Source: Thiosulfatihalobacter marinus (lineage in GTDB: Bacteria > Pseudomonadota > Alphaproteobacteria > Rhodobacterales > Rhodobacteraceae). From it: 64,000 nucleotides of DNA. Positions 57,566-63,535 of this stretch are shown here, piece by piece. Positions within the stretch are counted from its first letter, which is position 1. Each line of letters opens with the position of its first letter. The notes beneath the pieces were generated by a model. It did not search any database. It saw only the letters and a list, made by a program, of their open reading frames with translations, and was not told the DNA's origin. The DNA lies in the NCBI RefSeq assembly GCF_016019955.1, contig NZ_JAECRZ010000014.1, positions 1-64,000 on the forward strand, given 5' to 3'. A program made the translations under genes and the position numbers.

Positions 57566-57632
57566 GGGCCGGGGTGCCGCAACGGCCATGAACCTGCCGC
57601 GCCCGCCCGCCCCACAGGAAGGATGAACCTTG

Positions 57633-58619
57633 ATGCCGAACATATCGCTGGATGACATCGAAGATGCCGCTCGGGCGGCGCTGGAACGGCATGGCGCCCG
57701 GCCCTGGATTGCCGGGGAAGTTGCCGGCGCGATCCGCAAGGCCGAGGCGGTGGGGAATCGGATTTGCGGCCTCTACTATCTGGAAAGCTATTGCCGGCAG
57801 CTGCAAACCGGACGTGTCGACGGAACTGCCGAGCCGGTCGTGTCGCGCCCGCGCCCCGGCGCGGTTTTCGTTGATGCGAAGTTTGGCTTTGCCCAACCCG
57901 CTTTTGCGCGCGGCCTGCCCGAAGCGGTTGCCGCCGCGCGGGAAAACGGCGTGGCGAGCCTTGCCGTGGGCCACGCCCATACCTGCACGTCGCTTGGATA
58001 TTTCACCGAACATATCGCGCGTCAGGGTCTGATCGGGCTTGGGCTGACCAACGCCTCTCCGATTGTTGCACCGCCGGGGGGCAGGTCGCGTGTGATCGGC
58101 ACCAATCCGATCGCCTTTTCGGTCCCTGACGGAACCGGCGGAATTGCCATGCAGTTCGATCAGTCCACAACCACCGTCGCGCTGGGCAAGATTACCATGG
58201 CAAAGGCCGCCGGCGAACCCATTCCGGAAGGCTGGGCCCTGGACGCGCAAGGGTTCCCCACAACCGATCCCGCGGCGGCGCTTGGCGGTACCCTGGTCAG
58301 CGCCGGGGGCTACAAGGGCTGGGGGTTTGGCCTGATGGCCGAAGTGCTGGCCGCCGGTATGACAGGCAGTGTCGTCAGCCGTGACGTGCACCCGCTAAAG
58401 GCGCCGACAGGGCCGCCCCATGACCTGGGGCAATACTACCTGTTGATTGACCCGGGCGGCGCCACGGCGTTCCTTGACCGGCTCCAAAGCGTTGTCGATG
58501 CCGTAGCCCTGGACGAAGGAGGGCGCCTGCCCGGTCAGGGGAAGCGGGAACTGAACCCTGTCCAGATCGAACCGGCAGTGTGGGATCAGGTGTCGTGGCT
58601 GGCGGGGCGGGCACCGTGA
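57633..58619 (+). CDS. Ldh2-family malate/lactate/ureidoglycolate-type dehydrogenase
   Basis: A 328-residue NAD(P)-dependent oxidoreductase of the Ldh2 (not Rossmann) superfamily. The catalytic-His region is ASLAVGHAHTCTSLGYF, and LGLTNASPIVAPPGG, RVIGTNPIAFSVP and the glycine-rich KGWGFGLMAEVLA are family blocks. Members reduce 2-oxo acids or cyclic imino acids such as pyrroline- or piperideine-2-carboxylate. AGGAAGG is upstream of the ATG at 57633. Last gene of the operon; a MITE-like element lies after it. Confidence 0.85.
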   Translation: MPNISLDDIEDAARAALERHGARPWIAGEVAGAIRKAEAVGNRICGLYYLESYCRQLQTGRVDGTAEPVVSRPRPGAVFVDAKFGFAQPAFARGLPEAVAAARENGVASLAVGHAHTCTSLGYFTEHIARQGLIGLGLTNASPIVAPPGGRSRVIGTNPIAFSVPDGTGGIAMQFDQSTTTVALGKITMAKAAGEPIPEGWALDAQGFPTTDPAAALGGTLVSAGGYKGWGFGLMAEVLAAGMTGSVVSRDVHPLKAPTGPPHDLGQYYLLIDPGGATAFLDRLQSVVDAVALDEGGRLPGQGKRELNPVQIEPAVWDQVSWLAGRAP

Positions 58620-58715
58620 ACGGTTGCGCATGCGCGCCCGGATTGGCCATACCCAAAATCGGGGCGCGTGCGACCTCCTGGAAAATCGCCCCGGGCGCAA
58701 CCGCCACCAATGGAC

Positions 58716-58985
58716 CTTAGGGTCAGGACCCATTAATCCTGCGCCACTGGCGCCAAATCCACGAAATATCGGGGGTTTTGCGCGCGCCGGACATAGTGGC
58801 TCTATTTCCAAGCGTGCCAAGCCGCTGAGATGAAGTGGATTTGGCGTCCTACGGATTTGACGGATTTGCCGCCTGACGTCCTTTCAATGCCTTGAAATAG
58901 AACCACTATCCCTGCGGCATTGTACGTAGTCAGACAGCAAATCTGTTAAACCAGTGGCGCAGGATTAATGGGTCCTGACCCTAAG
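58716..58985. mobile_element. MITE-like element with perfect 35-bp terminal inverted repeats
   Basis: The left end (58716-58750, starting CTTAGGGTCAGGACCCATTA) and the right end (58951-58985, ending GGGTCCTGACCCTAAG) are perfect 35-bp inverted repeats. The 270-bp element has no open frame of note. Inside, CGCCAAATCCAC (58751-58762) matches GTGGATTTGGCG (58835-58846), and 58793-58812 matches 58891-58909 inverted with one mismatch and one extra base. It sits between convergent genes. The remaining bases of 58620-59037 hold nothing else that I recognise. Confidence 0.8.
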
Positions 58986-59037
58986 TAGCCCATCCGCCAG
59001 TTCATGTCTGGTGTCTCGCTGGAAAACAACGGACGCC

Positions 59038-59841
59038 TCATGACAACGGTAGAAATTTCCCCGTGAGACCCACGTCCAGGCGATGGATATGGTCGGCCAT
59101 TGCGGTTGGGAAATGCCGGCGCACCAGCGGGTCATGGCCGGGTACAATCAGTTCGGGCGCCGAGGCGAGCCTCTCCAACCTGTCAAAGCCGTCGAGCATG
59201 TTTTGCAGGTCGACCACGATGGGAAAAGGTTTGCGGGCAAAGACGTTTTCGTAGAAATGCGCGGCATCCGAGGCCAGCACCAGCCAACCTGCCTGCGTAC
59301 GCACCCGCACACATTGCAGCCCGCGGCTGTGTCCGCCGATACAGTGGACGGTCACGCCTTCCGCAACCTGTGCATCCCCGTCATGAAAGATCACCTGACC
59401 GGAGTAAAGCCGCTTGACCGTCTCGCAGACATGCCTGGCCGTGAAAGGCATCCGCAACGTGTCGTGGCACATGCACGGACCGGTGGCAAAGGCCATTTCC
59501 GCTGCCTGAAGGTGCAACGTTGCATTGGGGAAAAGATGAAGGCCACCAGCGTGATCGTAATGCAGATGCGTAACGATAATCGTCGTTACCTCTTCGGGCG
59601 CGATGCCAAAGGGGGCCAGGGCCGACACCGGATCAAGACGGATCGGGCGTGCCCGTCCGGTGGCCTCGGCCTTGTCATAACCGGTGTCCACAAGGATCAC
59701 GTCACGCCCACGCCGCAAGAGCCACATGAAGTAGTCCATGGCGTGGGGTGCATCGTGGTTGTCATCAAATATGAAGCTGTCCGCCCGCGTCCGGGCGTTT
59801 CGGTCGGCGTATTTGATCGCGTAGACTTCCCAGTCATTCAT
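59038..59841 (-). CDS. Metallo-beta-lactamase-fold hydrolase, N-acyl-homoserine-lactonase-like
   Basis: A 267-residue MBL-fold enzyme. The dinuclear metal motif is THLHYDHAGG (His92, His94, Asp96, His97); GGHSRG, ASDAAHFYEN and VPGHDP supply the remaining ligands. Overall pattern is that of lactonases of the AiiA/AttM type. Given the neighbouring tricarboxylate transporter, a lactone or ester intermediate of a nutrient is as likely a substrate as a quorum signal. It overlaps the ABM gene by ATGA; ATG 59841 chosen because upstream residues overlap that gene. Confidence 0.83.
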   Translation of the reverse strand: MNDWEVYAIKYADRNARTRADSFIFDDNHDAPHAMDYFMWLLRRGRDVILVDTGYDKAEATGRARPIRLDPVSALAPFGIAPEEVTTIIVTHLHYDHAGGLHLFPNATLHLQAAEMAFATGPCMCHDTLRMPFTARHVCETVKRLYSGQVIFHDGDAQVAEGVTVHCIGGHSRGLQCVRVRTQAGWLVLASDAAHFYENVFARKPFPIVVDLQNMLDGFDRLERLASAPELIVPGHDPLVRRHFPTAMADHIHRLDVGLTGKFLPLS

Positions 59842-60131
59842 GATGCGACCCTGTCGTAGCAACGTACGTTCTTGTCTTTTATCAGGGATGCCACCTGTAG
59901 GTCGAACGCCTTGAAATGGTCGCTCTCCAGATGAGCGTGAAAGGCCGAGGCGTCCGCATAAAGCTCGTACAGGAAAACTTCGTTCGCGCGGTCACCATCC
60001 GTGCACACGTCAAAACGGCGGCAACCCGGTTCCACTGCAAGCGATGTTCGTGCGTTTTCGGTCATGGCGGGCAGGAAATCCGCCATCTTGCCGTCCTGAA
60101 TCTGAAATGTCACCACAACTGCGTACATCAT
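59838..60131 (-). CDS. Antibiotic-biosynthesis-monooxygenase (ABM) domain protein
   Basis: A 97-residue ferredoxin-like-fold protein: VVTFQIQDGKMADFLPAMTE, EPGCRRFDVCTD, VFLYELYADASAFHAHLESD are typical of small quinol monooxygenases such as YgiN. Such proteins dimerise and oxidise or protect small aromatics or quinols without a metal. Coupled by ATGA overlaps to both the transporter gene upstream and the lactonase-like gene downstream. Confidence 0.82.
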   Translation of the reverse strand: MMYAVVVTFQIQDGKMADFLPAMTENARTSLAVEPGCRRFDVCTDGDRANEVFLYELYADASAFHAHLESDHFKAFDLQVASLIKDKNVRCYDRVAS

Positions 60132-61639
60132 GCCACCTTTCCGCGCAGGCGTCTGACCGCCCGCTTCATCATCGGCACCTGGCTGAGAACCAGCCCAAGA
60201 TTCAATGTCAGCAGGATGGCAGCAACCGGGCGCGAGGCAAAGACTGCCAGATCGCCGCCGGAAATCAACAGCGACCGGCGGAAAGTCTCGTCGAACAACC
60301 CGCCCAGAATGACACCGATGACCAACGGCGCGATCGGGTATTTCAGCAGGTTCATGAAATAGGCCACGAATCCCACACCCAGCATCAGATAAAGATCGTT
60401 GATACCGCCGCCAACGCTGAACGAGCCGATTGTCGTCAACACCATGACGACCGGCAGAAAGATCATCTGGGGTATGCGCAGGATCCTGATGAAGATGCGC
60501 GCCGTGAACAACCCCATCACGAACATCGTCAACGACGCCAGGACCATGATTGCAACGACACGCAGGATGATCGCGGGATCGATCGTGGGGCCGGGAATGA
60601 TGTTGTTGATCTTGAACGCCCCCATAAGCGCCGCCGCGGGCGGAGATCCCGGAATGCCCAGAACCAGCAATGGAATCAAGGCACCGCCGATACAGGCGTT
60701 ATTCGCGGTTTCCGACGACAGCAGGCCTTCAATCGAGCCTTTTCCGAATTTGTCACCCTCCTTGCTCACGGTCTTTCCCACGCCATAGCTGACCCATCCG
60801 GCGACATCTTCGCCGACGCCGGGCAGAGCGCCGACACCCGTCCCGATCACGCCGGATCGCGTGATTGTCGGCAGATACCGCCGGATTGCCGCCAGGTTGG
60901 GAAGGATACGCCCCTTGAGCTGAACCATCTGGCCAATCTCCATATGGCGCATTCCTTCGATGATCTGCGGCACGGCGAAGGCGCCCATCAGAACCGGAAC
61001 GACCTGAAAGCCGCTGAGCATATAGGACCAGCCAAACGTATAGCGTGGCTCGCTCAGAAGGGGGTCAAGCCCGACCATGGCCATTGCCAGCCCGATCAAC
61101 CCCGCGATCCAGCCCTTGATCACAAGATCTTCGGACATCAGCGTTCCCGAAAGAAGGATCCCGAAAAGCGCAAGCAAGGCCTTTTCCGGGCTGGCAATGT
61201 TCTGTGACAGAAGCAGAAGGAGCCAGACGAAGATCAACAGCGCAAAGGTGCCGATCAGGGTGCCGATGAAGCTGGCCGTGGTGGTCAGGCCAAGCGCCTC
61301 GCCGCCACGCCCGGCCTTGGCCAGGGGGTAGCCATCCATCGCCGTGGCCGCACTTGCGGCCGTGCCTGGAATGTTCAGCAGGATCGACGGGTAGGAACCG
61401 CCGTAAATCGCGCCAACATAGGCCCCCAACAAGGCTATCAACGAGTAGTCCAGCGGGATCTTGTTGCCGAAGAACCCGGTCAGGATTGTCACCGCCAGCG
61501 TCGCCGTAAGGCCCGGCAAGGCGCCAAAGGTGATTCCCAGGAACACGGACACGATCAGATACGCATAGGTCAGCGGATCAAGTGCAAGCGAGGCAAAGGC
61601 CGCGCCGAACCCGGAAAGTTGTGTGAAAACGAATTCCAA
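60128..61639 (-). CDS. tctA: Tripartite tricarboxylate transporter, large membrane subunit
   Basis: A 503-residue protein with about twelve TM helices. FGALPGLTATLAVTILTGFF, GAIYGGSYPSILLNIPGTAA and GIPGSPPAAALMGAFKI are TctA hallmarks. It forms the proton- or sodium-driven channel with TctB and receives substrate from TctC. Starts one base after tctB ends. The substrate is a carboxylate of unknown type. Confidence 0.93.
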   Translation of the reverse strand: MEFVFTQLSGFGAAFASLALDPLTYAYLIVSVFLGITFGALPGLTATLAVTILTGFFGNKIPLDYSLIALLGAYVGAIYGGSYPSILLNIPGTAASAATAMDGYPLAKAGRGGEALGLTTTASFIGTLIGTFALLIFVWLLLLLSQNIASPEKALLALFGILLSGTLMSEDLVIKGWIAGLIGLAMAMVGLDPLLSEPRYTFGWSYMLSGFQVVPVLMGAFAVPQIIEGMRHMEIGQMVQLKGRILPNLAAIRRYLPTITRSGVIGTGVGALPGVGEDVAGWVSYGVGKTVSKEGDKFGKGSIEGLLSSETANNACIGGALIPLLVLGIPGSPPAAALMGAFKINNIIPGPTIDPAIILRVVAIMVLASLTMFVMGLFTARIFIRILRIPQMIFLPVVMVLTTIGSFSVGGGINDLYLMLGVGFVAYFMNLLKYPIAPLVIGVILGGLFDETFRRSLLISGGDLAVFASRPVAAILLTLNLGLVLSQVPMMKRAVRRLRGKVA

Positions 61640-61640
61640 T

Positions 61641-62384
61641 TCAGGACCTCCAGAGCGGACGGATTGTTACGTAGTAGTGATATTCGATTTGCTTGAAGAG
61701 CAGCCCTCCCCGGTTCGGCACGTTCTGCCGGAACCCAAAGGCCATGGCACATACCAGCAGCACGGGGGCAAGGACGGCGATGACCGGGACCGTTTTCAAA
61801 ACCCGGTCAGCGCGCGCGCGTGTCAACATCCAGATCGTCAGGCCCACCCAGGCGCCAAGCGTAACCCAGTCGTCGTCATGGGCCCCCCATTCTGACTGTG
61901 GAAGATGCGCAATCATGGCATACCCGCCGGACAGGGCTATTGCGCCGGCCGCGAGGATCATGCGCCCCCGCAGGCCCTTGTGGAAGCCAAAGGTCAGCGC
62001 GGTGATCAACAATCCGCTGCTCAGAATGAAATCGACACGCGGCACCAGACCGGCGACGTAGAAGAACAGGATCACACCGATGGTGAGAAACCGCAGGGCT
62101 TCGTCCGCGTTCCAGCCGACCCCGATCGCAGACAGGGCGCGCCGTGCGCCACCAGCCCGGATCGAAATGCCCAGCATGACGATCGACAGGACAAGCAGAG
62201 CCGAGAAAAGGCCCAATGGGACAATAGCGGCCGAATTGTACCAGGATGCAGAGCTGACACCGGCCCGGTTCCCGCCCCAAAGCGGAATATCGAAGGTCCG
62301 CCACAAGAAGAATACTGATACCGCTGTCAAGACAAGCGCGCCCCAGAAATCACGCGCCCGCAGAATGTCCGTTTCGTCGTCCAT
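61641..62384 (-). CDS. tctB: Tripartite tricarboxylate transporter, small membrane subunit
   Basis: A 247-residue membrane protein, longer than the usual TctB (about 150-180). Predicted TM helices include FWGALVLTAVSVFFLWRTF, IVPLGLFSALLVLSIVMLGI and FLTIGVILFFYVAGLVPRV; a C-terminal pair of extra TM segments (about residues 185-225) accounts for the length. The identification rests mainly on its position between tctA and tctC. Confidence 0.8.
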   Translation of the reverse strand: MDDETDILRARDFWGALVLTAVSVFFLWRTFDIPLWGGNRAGVSSASWYNSAAIVPLGLFSALLVLSIVMLGISIRAGGARRALSAIGVGWNADEALRFLTIGVILFFYVAGLVPRVDFILSSGLLITALTFGFHKGLRGRMILAAGAIALSGGYAMIAHLPQSEWGAHDDDWVTLGAWVGLTIWMLTRARADRVLKTVPVIAVLAPVLLVCAMAFGFRQNVPNRGGLLFKQIEYHYYVTIRPLWRS

Positions 62385-62413
62385 GTCCCGAAAGTTCCCT
62401 GGAATAAAAGCAA

Positions 62414-62445
62414 GTCCGGGCACGGGGTTGAACCCGCGCCCGGAC
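62414..62445 (-). promoter_or_regulatory. Intercistronic hairpin after tctC
   Basis: GTCCGGGC (62414-62421) and GCCCGGAC (62438-62445) form a perfect 8-bp stem between the binding-protein gene and tctB. The placement is the same as at 10958-10979 and suggests excess production of TctC. Confidence 0.55.
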
Positions 62446-62461
62446 AGATTTCAGCCCACAA

Positions 62462-63469
62462 TCAAGGGCGCTCGATCCCGAGGCTTGCCGGATCCACCGT
62501 TGTGGCGCCAAGCTCTTGCAACGTATAGGCAAAGTTGCTTTCCAGCTTGGTAAAGATCGCTTGAGCTTCCGCGCCATAGGCCCCGCTGACAGTGTAGTTG
62601 TTGGCTGCCGCCCATTGGGCAACCACATCCGAGGCGATGGCCTTTTCGAACGCGGCGCCAAGCGCGGCTTTCACGTCGTCGGAGGCGCTGTCGTGGACGG
62701 CAAAACCGATGGCCTGTGTCAGCGGCAGGTATTTGTCGAGCCCGTCATAGATGTCAAATGCGGACGGAACGGTCATACCGGCGATGTCGGCGCTGTCGGG
62801 TGTCAGCATTGCCAGCGGTTTCAACTGTCCGCCTTCGATCAAGGGGGCCTGTTCCGCCAGAGATGTCACGACCAGTTGGACCTCGCCCGCGATGGCGGCT
62901 TCCTGACCGGGAGCCGAGCCCTTGTAGGGAACAAAGAGGAACTCTGCGCCTGTGCCGTTCTGAATGGCCAGAAGGTTCAGGTGGTGGATAGATCCGGCGC
63001 CGGATGCCGCGGCCGGAATGGACCCGGGTGCTGCCTTGGCGGCGTCAACCAGCTCTTGCAGGGTGTTGTAGGGACTGTTGGCCGGTACCGAGATCAGCAG
63101 GGGCGAGCCGCCGACAATGAACGGATACCAATAGTCGAATTTCTGGTCCCACCCACCCTGTACTGCGGCTGTGACGTTGGACTCGGACAGGCCGACCAGA
63201 GTGTACCCGTCGTCGGGCTGGTTCATGACATAGACCATGCCGTTCGACCCGGCCACACCGCCGGTCTGGTTGATCACATTGATGGATACGGGCAGATGTT
63301 TTTCCATTTCCGCCATGATCATGCGGTTGATGGTGTCGGTGCCGCCGCCCGCACCCCAGACAACCGCCGTCGTAATGTCGCGGAACGGGTATTCCTGCGC
63401 GATGGCGGAACTCCCCAGTCCGGTCGCAAGTGCGGCAATCGCCGCCAGTTTTCCAAGATTGAGTTTCAT
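62462..63469 (-). CDS. tctC: Tripartite tricarboxylate transporter substrate-binding protein
   Basis: A 335-residue periplasmic binding protein (Bug family). A Sec signal peptide (MKLNLGKLAAIAALATGLGS, cleavage after AIAQ) precedes YPFRDITTAVVWGAGGGTD, whose glycine-rich loop, together with NQTGGVAGSNG, binds the ligand carboxylate. ATG 63469 is used; the longer frame lacks a ribosome binding site. First gene of the leftward operon, divergent from the dehydrogenase at 63603. Confidence 0.92.
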   Translation of the reverse strand: MKLNLGKLAAIAALATGLGSSAIAQEYPFRDITTAVVWGAGGGTDTINRMIMAEMEKHLPVSINVINQTGGVAGSNGMVYVMNQPDDGYTLVGLSESNVTAAVQGGWDQKFDYWYPFIVGGSPLLISVPANSPYNTLQELVDAAKAAPGSIPAAASGAGSIHHLNLLAIQNGTGAEFLFVPYKGSAPGQEAAIAGEVQLVVTSLAEQAPLIEGGQLKPLAMLTPDSADIAGMTVPSAFDIYDGLDKYLPLTQAIGFAVHDSASDDVKAALGAAFEKAIASDVVAQWAAANNYTVSGAYGAEAQAIFTKLESNFAYTLQELGATTVDPASLGIERP

Positions 63470-63535
63470 TTGGATGGTCCTCCCATAGGTTAACATTCTC
63501 TATTGTATTTCTTTGCGTATGCATTAAATAATCAA

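Follow-up and report, generated by a model that had tools for sequence, protein, structure and literature searches.

The locus studied here poses two questions: what is the short element with perfectly matching ends that lies between two convergent genes, and why do the inverted repeats inside it interleave? In an initial annotation of the window, the whole 64,000-nucleotide stretch of DNA that was analyzed, it was described as a 270-bp MITE-like element with identical 35-bp ends, recently active and perhaps a terminator for both flanking operons, whose interleaved repeats suggested either a composite of two elements or a folded structure. The reading that we prefer, at a probability of about two in three, is that the element is a MITE mobilized by an IS5-family transposase and that it supplies REP-like structured RNA 3′ ends to genes transcribed into either of its sides; the RNA role is what we infer from the features set out below.

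The element, its copies, and its partner

The element proved slightly shorter than first drawn. The arms at 58716-58750 and 58951-58985 are indeed 100% complementary, but only 31 of the 35 nt in each arm are element sequence; beyond these come 2 nt of TA target duplication and then 2 outermost nt of flank that pair by chance. This leaves a body of 262 bp (Table 1), with 31-bp terminal repeats that are perfect in the window copy. The features that define a MITE are all present, in that the element is short, lacks a coding gene, and has terminal inverted repeats, a target duplication, and multiple copies. Because 20 further full-length copies occur in the genome, chance is ruled out as the source of the window element, and the original observation is real.

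Table 1. Features of the element and its flanks in the window
Feature	Position	Strand	Remarks
Left neighbor, Ldh_2 family dehydrogenase	57630..58619	+	ends 99 bp before element
Left TA target duplication	58718..58719	.	target TTAA at window copy
Element body, 262 bp	58720..58981	.	GGGTCAGG...CCTGACCC; from sequence; edge is where homology among the 21 genomic copies stops, at TA
Left terminal inverted repeat, 31 bp	58720..58750	+	
HP1 hairpin	58751..58846	+	apical stem-loop ATAG-TGGCT-CTAT in window copy; covariation, model R1, G-U/A-C asymmetry
Linker	58847..58855	.	TCCTACGGA; 3-bp mini-hairpin
HP2, homologous hairpin	58856..58950	-	apical stem-loop ATAG-TGGTT-CTAT; covariation, model R2, asymmetry
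Right terminal inverted repeat, 31 bp	58951..58981	-	
Right TA target duplication	58982..58983	.	
Right convergent neighbor, metallo-beta-lactamase-fold hydrolase	59038..59862	-	ends 55 bp after element

The genome is a 4.16-Mb draft in 66 contigs, and its 21 full-length copies are 93.6 to 99.6% identical in pairwise comparison (mean, 97.2%). It also holds a partial copy with HP2 only (C44:149819-149974), a copy truncated at the end of a contig (C13:1-76), two copies of which nothing but the two ends is left (C11:578860-578918 and C60:112000-112058), and some single ends. Elsewhere, and always counting the genome itself, a DNA search detected the element in 6 of 25 genomes from the genus and (at E ≤ 1e-10) in 15 of 295 genomes of the family, while covariance model R2 found it in 26 of 394 family genomes (E ≤ 1e-7). 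The DNA search also recovered it from 10 plasmid records, belonging to Phaeobacter and Pseudosulfitobacter, and the phage records searched gave no match. A class-wide search with model R1 (E ≤ 1e-6) returned 2 of 385 genomes, the present one included and both within the family, although this search used strict filters and scored 10 candidates per genome, so that absence elsewhere is unproved. The spread detected is thus that of one bacterial family, and the named carriers are Roseobacteraceae.

The copies vary in form. Shortened elements include one with HP2 alone between the ends (L022, 1501-1656), one with HP1 alone (L112, 101-262), and one consisting of the two ends alone, about 60 bp in all (L029, 1499-1567). 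In 3 of 34 aligned elements (L085, 1501-1812; L106, 3001-3314; L108, 3001-3311), an insert of some 45 bp lies between the hairpins and itself contains, as judged by eye, two short hairpins with 3-nt loops. At least three elements or end pieces cluster within about 1 kb in genome G317 (L089, 1320-2307), and in G027 a tRNA gene directly adjoins an element (L086, 1411-1492). Two loci of G208, L110 (G208:C1:1482638-1484958; 501-1821) and L111 (501-1938), had been taken for autonomous partners, a view since dropped: each is a copy of the element interrupted by a foreign IS, which, judged by eye from the open reading frames, is IS630-like in one and IS3-like in the other, so that the element itself can be a target.

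A candidate mover is found in relatives. Genome G027, a single contig, contains four copies of an 851-bp IS (both TA counted) with the ends TAGGGTCAGGACCCATTAAT / TAGGCTCAGGACTCATTGAT, and its two reading frames match PF13340 and PF01609, as well as NF033580 (IS5 transposase); its subgroup we take to be IS427-like. The outer 18 bp of the element's left terminal repeat, together with the TA, are identical to one end of this IS. Its first frame was matched in 9 of 25 genomes of the genus (E ≤ 1e-8). When up to 6 mismatches in 20 were allowed per end, both IS ends lay 834 to 923 bp apart at 10 of 25 loci examined (19 of the 20 in one locus set, 5 of the 12 in another, and L118), L118 and L163 being the same IS. 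Seven of these 10 loci are in five genomes of the window's genus, where the IS measures 834 to 844 bp and differs from the element's 20-letter end by 1 to 3 mismatches on the left and 4 to 6 on the right. From the common ends we infer that the 262-bp element is a nonautonomous MITE moved by an IS5-family transposase. IS630, first suggested as the mover by the TA ends, was discarded, since the IS with matching ends is of the IS5 family. In G309, many contigs are broken off some 75 bp within the same end sequence (for example, C1:57-76, C3:55-74, and C7:56-75); these breaks, with the end variant ATTGAT, are probably copies of a multicopy IS with these ends.

A full-length IS with the element's ends, for which a search had been proposed, therefore occurs in relatives, but none of the partner type, IS or transposase, was found in the genome's own assembly, which may reflect a gap in the draft. 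The suggestion of recent activity fares similarly: it is supported in part, by the near identity of the copies, but no partner-type transposase was found in the draft. The element, then, is a genuine but ordinary IS5-type MITE; what is not ordinary is its pair of covarying, strand-specific hairpins.

Insertion sites and gene ends

All 21 copies in the genome occupy a YTAR target, the right TA being mutated in L019. Genes were called by a simple hexamer method trained on 464 kb of this genome (400 genes). By these calls, a gene's stop codon is formed at the element's edge in 17 of the 21 copies, and 15 of the 21 lie between convergent genes, compared with 60 of 379 adjacent gene pairs. The window copy itself has convergent neighbors yet no stop at its edge. 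An earlier gene model, for which the window was the sole training sequence, placed 13 of 21 copies between convergent genes (it differs for L003 and L014), and an earlier scoring of stops gave 15 of 19, with L003 and L011 unplaced. In other genomes, under the gene model trained on this one, an edge stop was found in 14 of 28 placed copies (L084 and L102 unplaced), and among the IS copies of G027 in none of 4.

The match between stops and edges arises because the target is YTAR, in which the TA and the element's own first G restore a TAG. How much of the enrichment exceeds this was judged against background YTAR sites, which fall at stops in 55 of 310 cases, or 55 of 179 outside coding sequence. 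With context matched, 13 of 15 copies between convergent genes have a stop at the edge versus 26 of 45 background sites (p 0.06), and in tandem context the figures are 4 of 5 versus 29 of 87 (p 0.05; combined p 0.01). The excess is modest, so that YTAR and selection explain most of the enrichment, leaving a weak residual for active targeting of stops.

We had considered that the edge stops arose as premature stops, but dropped this idea: with YTAR as the target, any frame now reading TAG at the edge must already have read TAA or TAG there. The empty site that we found agrees: in G002, the site occupied elsewhere by copy L017 lies between convergent genes whose two stops overlap in TTAA, and the C termini of both proteins are about equally long at the empty and occupied sites. 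Relatives thus do yield an empty site of the kind that had been proposed as a check, although not for the window copy, whose two flanks match on different contigs in G001; the plasmid flanks that were checked gave none that was clear. To the right of the lactonase-like neighbor, at 60128-63496 of the window, there appears by eye to be a tripartite tricarboxylate transporter set on the - strand.

Covariation, strand asymmetry, and interleaving of the hairpins

The strand folds far more stably than dinucleotide-preserving shuffles, at -163.3 kcal/mol (z, -14.8), and without the terminal repeats the same comparison still gives z of -8.3 on the + strand and -5.3 on the - strand. For comparison across genomes, 40 loci were reduced by 6 fragments to 34 full-length elements, which were aligned, and by 8 elements at ≥92% identity to the 26 that were kept. 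Identity to the window copy falls to about 66%, or to 62% counting an insert, while length and layout hold. On MAFFT alignments made without structure, HP1 (96 nt) had 91.7% of cells paired and 22 of 35 pairs changed on both sides, and HP2 (95 nt) had 91.0% of cells paired and 24 of 32 pairs so changed. Cells changed on both sides numbered 105 in HP1 versus a shuffled mean of 28, and 122 in HP2 versus 41; for neither hairpin did any of 500 shuffles reach any of five covariation measures, and slid-structure controls gave 30 to 55% paired and 13 to 34 both-sides-changed cells. The HP2 structure is the RNAalifold consensus, while that of HP1 comprises 31 predicted pairs and four neighboring pairs added by hand, with poor pairing at two of them (columns 3-96 and 5-94). 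The window copy matches model R1 in HP1 at E 3e-27 and model R2 in HP2 at E 4e-22, being itself in both training sets.

Certain unpaired positions are also constrained. In HP1, columns 13-15 / 84-86 (alignment A1) form a strongly conserved internal loop with GAA facing GAA, and in HP2 an AAGGA / GACGCA-like internal loop is strongly conserved around columns 23-27 / 70-75 (alignment A2). Such loops are as expected for protein-bound sites or nonstandard pairs. Rfam 15 gave no match to positions 58600-59100 of the window at E ≤ 1, and at 10 loci that carry divergent elements it gave 4 matches at E ≤ 0.1, to tRNA, SorX, and SorY, all of them outside the elements.

Consensus folding prefers HP1 on the + strand and HP2 on the - strand, where the G-U:A-C counts are 90:13 and 107:24. 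When only Watson-Crick-majority pairs were counted, a filter used so that pairs were not picked by the G-U rule itself, the ratios were 64:24 for HP1(+), 59:22 for HP2(-), and 17:16 for the terminal repeats. Counted per pair position, they were 18:5 (p 0.01), 20:5 (p 0.004), and 8:10, respectively, the p values being only a guide since the sequences are related by descent. Single-sequence folds point the same way, with HP1 more stable on + in 25 of 26 elements and HP2 more stable on - in 24 of 26. At 13 loci outside the training set, HP1 was more stable on + at 12 (L199 was contrary, and L197, among the 12, has no recognizable HP1) and HP2 was more stable on - at 10, with two contrary and one tie; three of the 13 are near-copies (94 to 99% in HP2) of training elements, and leaving these three out gives 9 of 10 and 7 of 10. 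Asymmetry of this kind would be compatible with RNA and with single-stranded DNA alike, and RNA is not proved by it because G-T pairs are favored in single-stranded DNA hairpins too.

This last point allows an alternative in which the hairpins serve transposition at the DNA level: as strand-specific structures, either extruded or single-stranded, they would be recognized by the transposase or a host factor, and the location at gene ends would be a matter of survival only. The asymmetry would be equally expected there, and two inverted hairpins resemble a REPIN; REP-type hairpins occur as inverted pairs, and REP hairpins are recognized by RAYT proteins. We nonetheless consider it unlikely. The same-ended IS has no such hairpins (models R1 and R2 gave no match at E ≤ 0.1 at 12 loci holding it), and its transposase therefore needs none for its own movement. 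There are also elements that have a single hairpin (L112 and L022) or none at all (L029), and IS5-type DDE transposases work on double-stranded ends.

It seems improbable that the element is a plain MITE whose internal structure is a functionless by-product of palindrome formation and template switching, with the arms matched by intrastrand correction. Template-switch correction can make compensatory changes in palindromes. However, correction should give perfect palindromes, whereas these hairpins keep conserved internal loops and, at one position, a U-G pair in 20 of 26 elements; moreover, HP1 and HP2 show the asymmetry in opposite directions, and the terminal repeats show none.

The role first proposed for the element, that of a bidirectional intrinsic terminator for two convergent genes, suits its position between such genes and the strong hairpin on each strand. 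Yet there is no T-run directly after either hairpin, which makes intrinsic termination unlikely, and the number of terminator-like sites is 1 versus 0.5 expected, the sole site (- strand, 58918-58902) lying inside HP2 and not after it. We therefore hold out little prospect for this proposal. The elements may still form a Rho-dependent or processed 3′ end, and a 3′-end role for both neighbors is our best guess.

Why, then, do the internal repeats interleave? The two inverted repeat pairs that had been noticed are present, and they trace to the tops of HP1 and HP2. One pair, 58751-58762/58835-58846, forms the outer portion of an imperfect hairpin that extends over 58751-58785/58812-58846, and the other, 58793-58812/58891-58909, is readable in the sequence, although the repeat finder gave it no separate entry. 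At 10 of 30 loci, model R1 picks up HP2 in its working orientation, with E from 6e-7 to 7e-3, and none of the matches listed at E ≤ 0.01 is to the opposite strand of HP2; R2 matches the place of HP1 on its working strand in 5 of the 30; and HP1 is at the expected inverted place in 27 of them (the 30 loci were found by HP2 and include training genomes). Judged by these sequence matches, a single hairpin, with AATAG-TGGTT-CTATT as its apical motif, underlies both HP1 and HP2, which are diverged copies of it in inverted orientation, and the arms interleave because they are the apices of the two copies. Of the two readings offered at the outset, the folded structure thus stands, while two nested elements are ruled out by an interior that aligns end to end across genera. 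That the arms instead pair with each other as a kissing loop or pseudoknot in a folded transcript is very improbable: they do interleave, and the loops TGGTT and AACCA are complementary in many elements, but apical loop-loop pairing is no better than shuffled (91 of 130 cells versus a mean of 92), and the interleaved helix has 75.6% of cells paired and 2 changed on both sides, against 91 to 92% paired and 15 and 8 so changed in the local apical stems.

A proposed 3′-end role and known systems

Our preferred reading, in which the hairpins work as RNA at gene ends, would run as follows. An IS5-family transposase, encoded in two reading frames, would recognize the GGGTCAGGACCCATTRAT ends and insert the element at the TA of YTAR. 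This target is the sequence of overlapping tail-to-tail stops, and the TA with the element's first G remakes a TAG. Given an interior made of two diverged inverted copies of one RNA hairpin, HP1 read on + and HP2 on -, a transcript from either side, in either orientation, would meet the TAG, 30 more nt of terminal repeat, and then a hairpin in its working sense. Copies would in this way survive at gene ends, mostly where two genes converge, and would then form the 3′ untranslated region of one gene or of both. There the hairpins would serve as REP-like structures that protect or set the mRNA 3′ end, or insulate it from the convergent transcript, and such an action may keep the insertions harmless or useful.

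A broader and more tentative possibility, which we would not yet favor, is that of a family-wide mobile RNA: by transposing, the element would deliver a single hairpin to the 3′ ends of many unrelated genes, there to be read by an RNase or an RNA-binding protein of the host, and the two inverted copies would let it work in whichever direction the element landed. The element would then be an orientation-independent, portable 3′ untranslated region that rebuilds the stop it lands in. If the hairpins act as RNA, one type of element would set the 3′ ends of many genes at once across the family, and one could then test directly whether small repeats behave as parasites or as regulatory parts, the 21 near-identical insertions in one genome being ready-made replicates.

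Bacterial MITEs with folded transcripts are already known. In the passages and search results covered, which are of open-licence papers, no MITE appears with a homologous pair of hairpins under selection on opposite strands and covarying over many genera; nor did the searches yield a report on this element, its end sequence, or "miniature inverted" elements of Roseobacter/Rhodobacteraceae. The IS5-family IS of relatives (NF033580) and their MITEs share the GGGTCAGGACCCATTRAT ends and TA duplication with the element, which has no coding gene; what differs is its 200-bp interior, which is unrelated to the IS and contains the two covarying hairpins.

Like REP, BIME, and REPIN sequences, the element places hairpins at gene ends; unlike them, it has hairpins of about 95 nt with internal loops, IS5-type ends, and a TA duplication. 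REPs are reported, in the portion of the account available, to block 3′-5′ decay or to act in termination (PMC5082802), and by analogy the present hairpins may block 3′-5′ decay or aid termination. Correia/NEMIS, ERIC, and RUP are likewise described in part as small elements with TA ends whose transcripts fold (PMC2229807), and effects on RNase processing or decay are reported, in excerpt, for Correia and ERIC (PMC10969869). According to the same partial description, however, Correia/NEMIS, ERIC, and RUP fold by pairing of their ends (PMC2229807), whereas the element has two local, strand-specific hairpins inside its end repeats.

The nearest description that we found, in the available portion of the source, is that of the CIR repeats of Caulobacter and Brucella (Chen and Shapiro 2003, as described in PMC2229807), which are about 110 bp long, lack terminal inverted repeats, and carry a conserved GANTC. 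The CIR repeats, known to us by this description, differ from the element in that the latter has 31-bp terminal repeats and contains any GANTC in only 2 of 26 cases. Like them, however, it is an alphaproteobacterial intergenic repeat with two hairpin arms, a linker, and TA ends (PMC2229807, in the part available).
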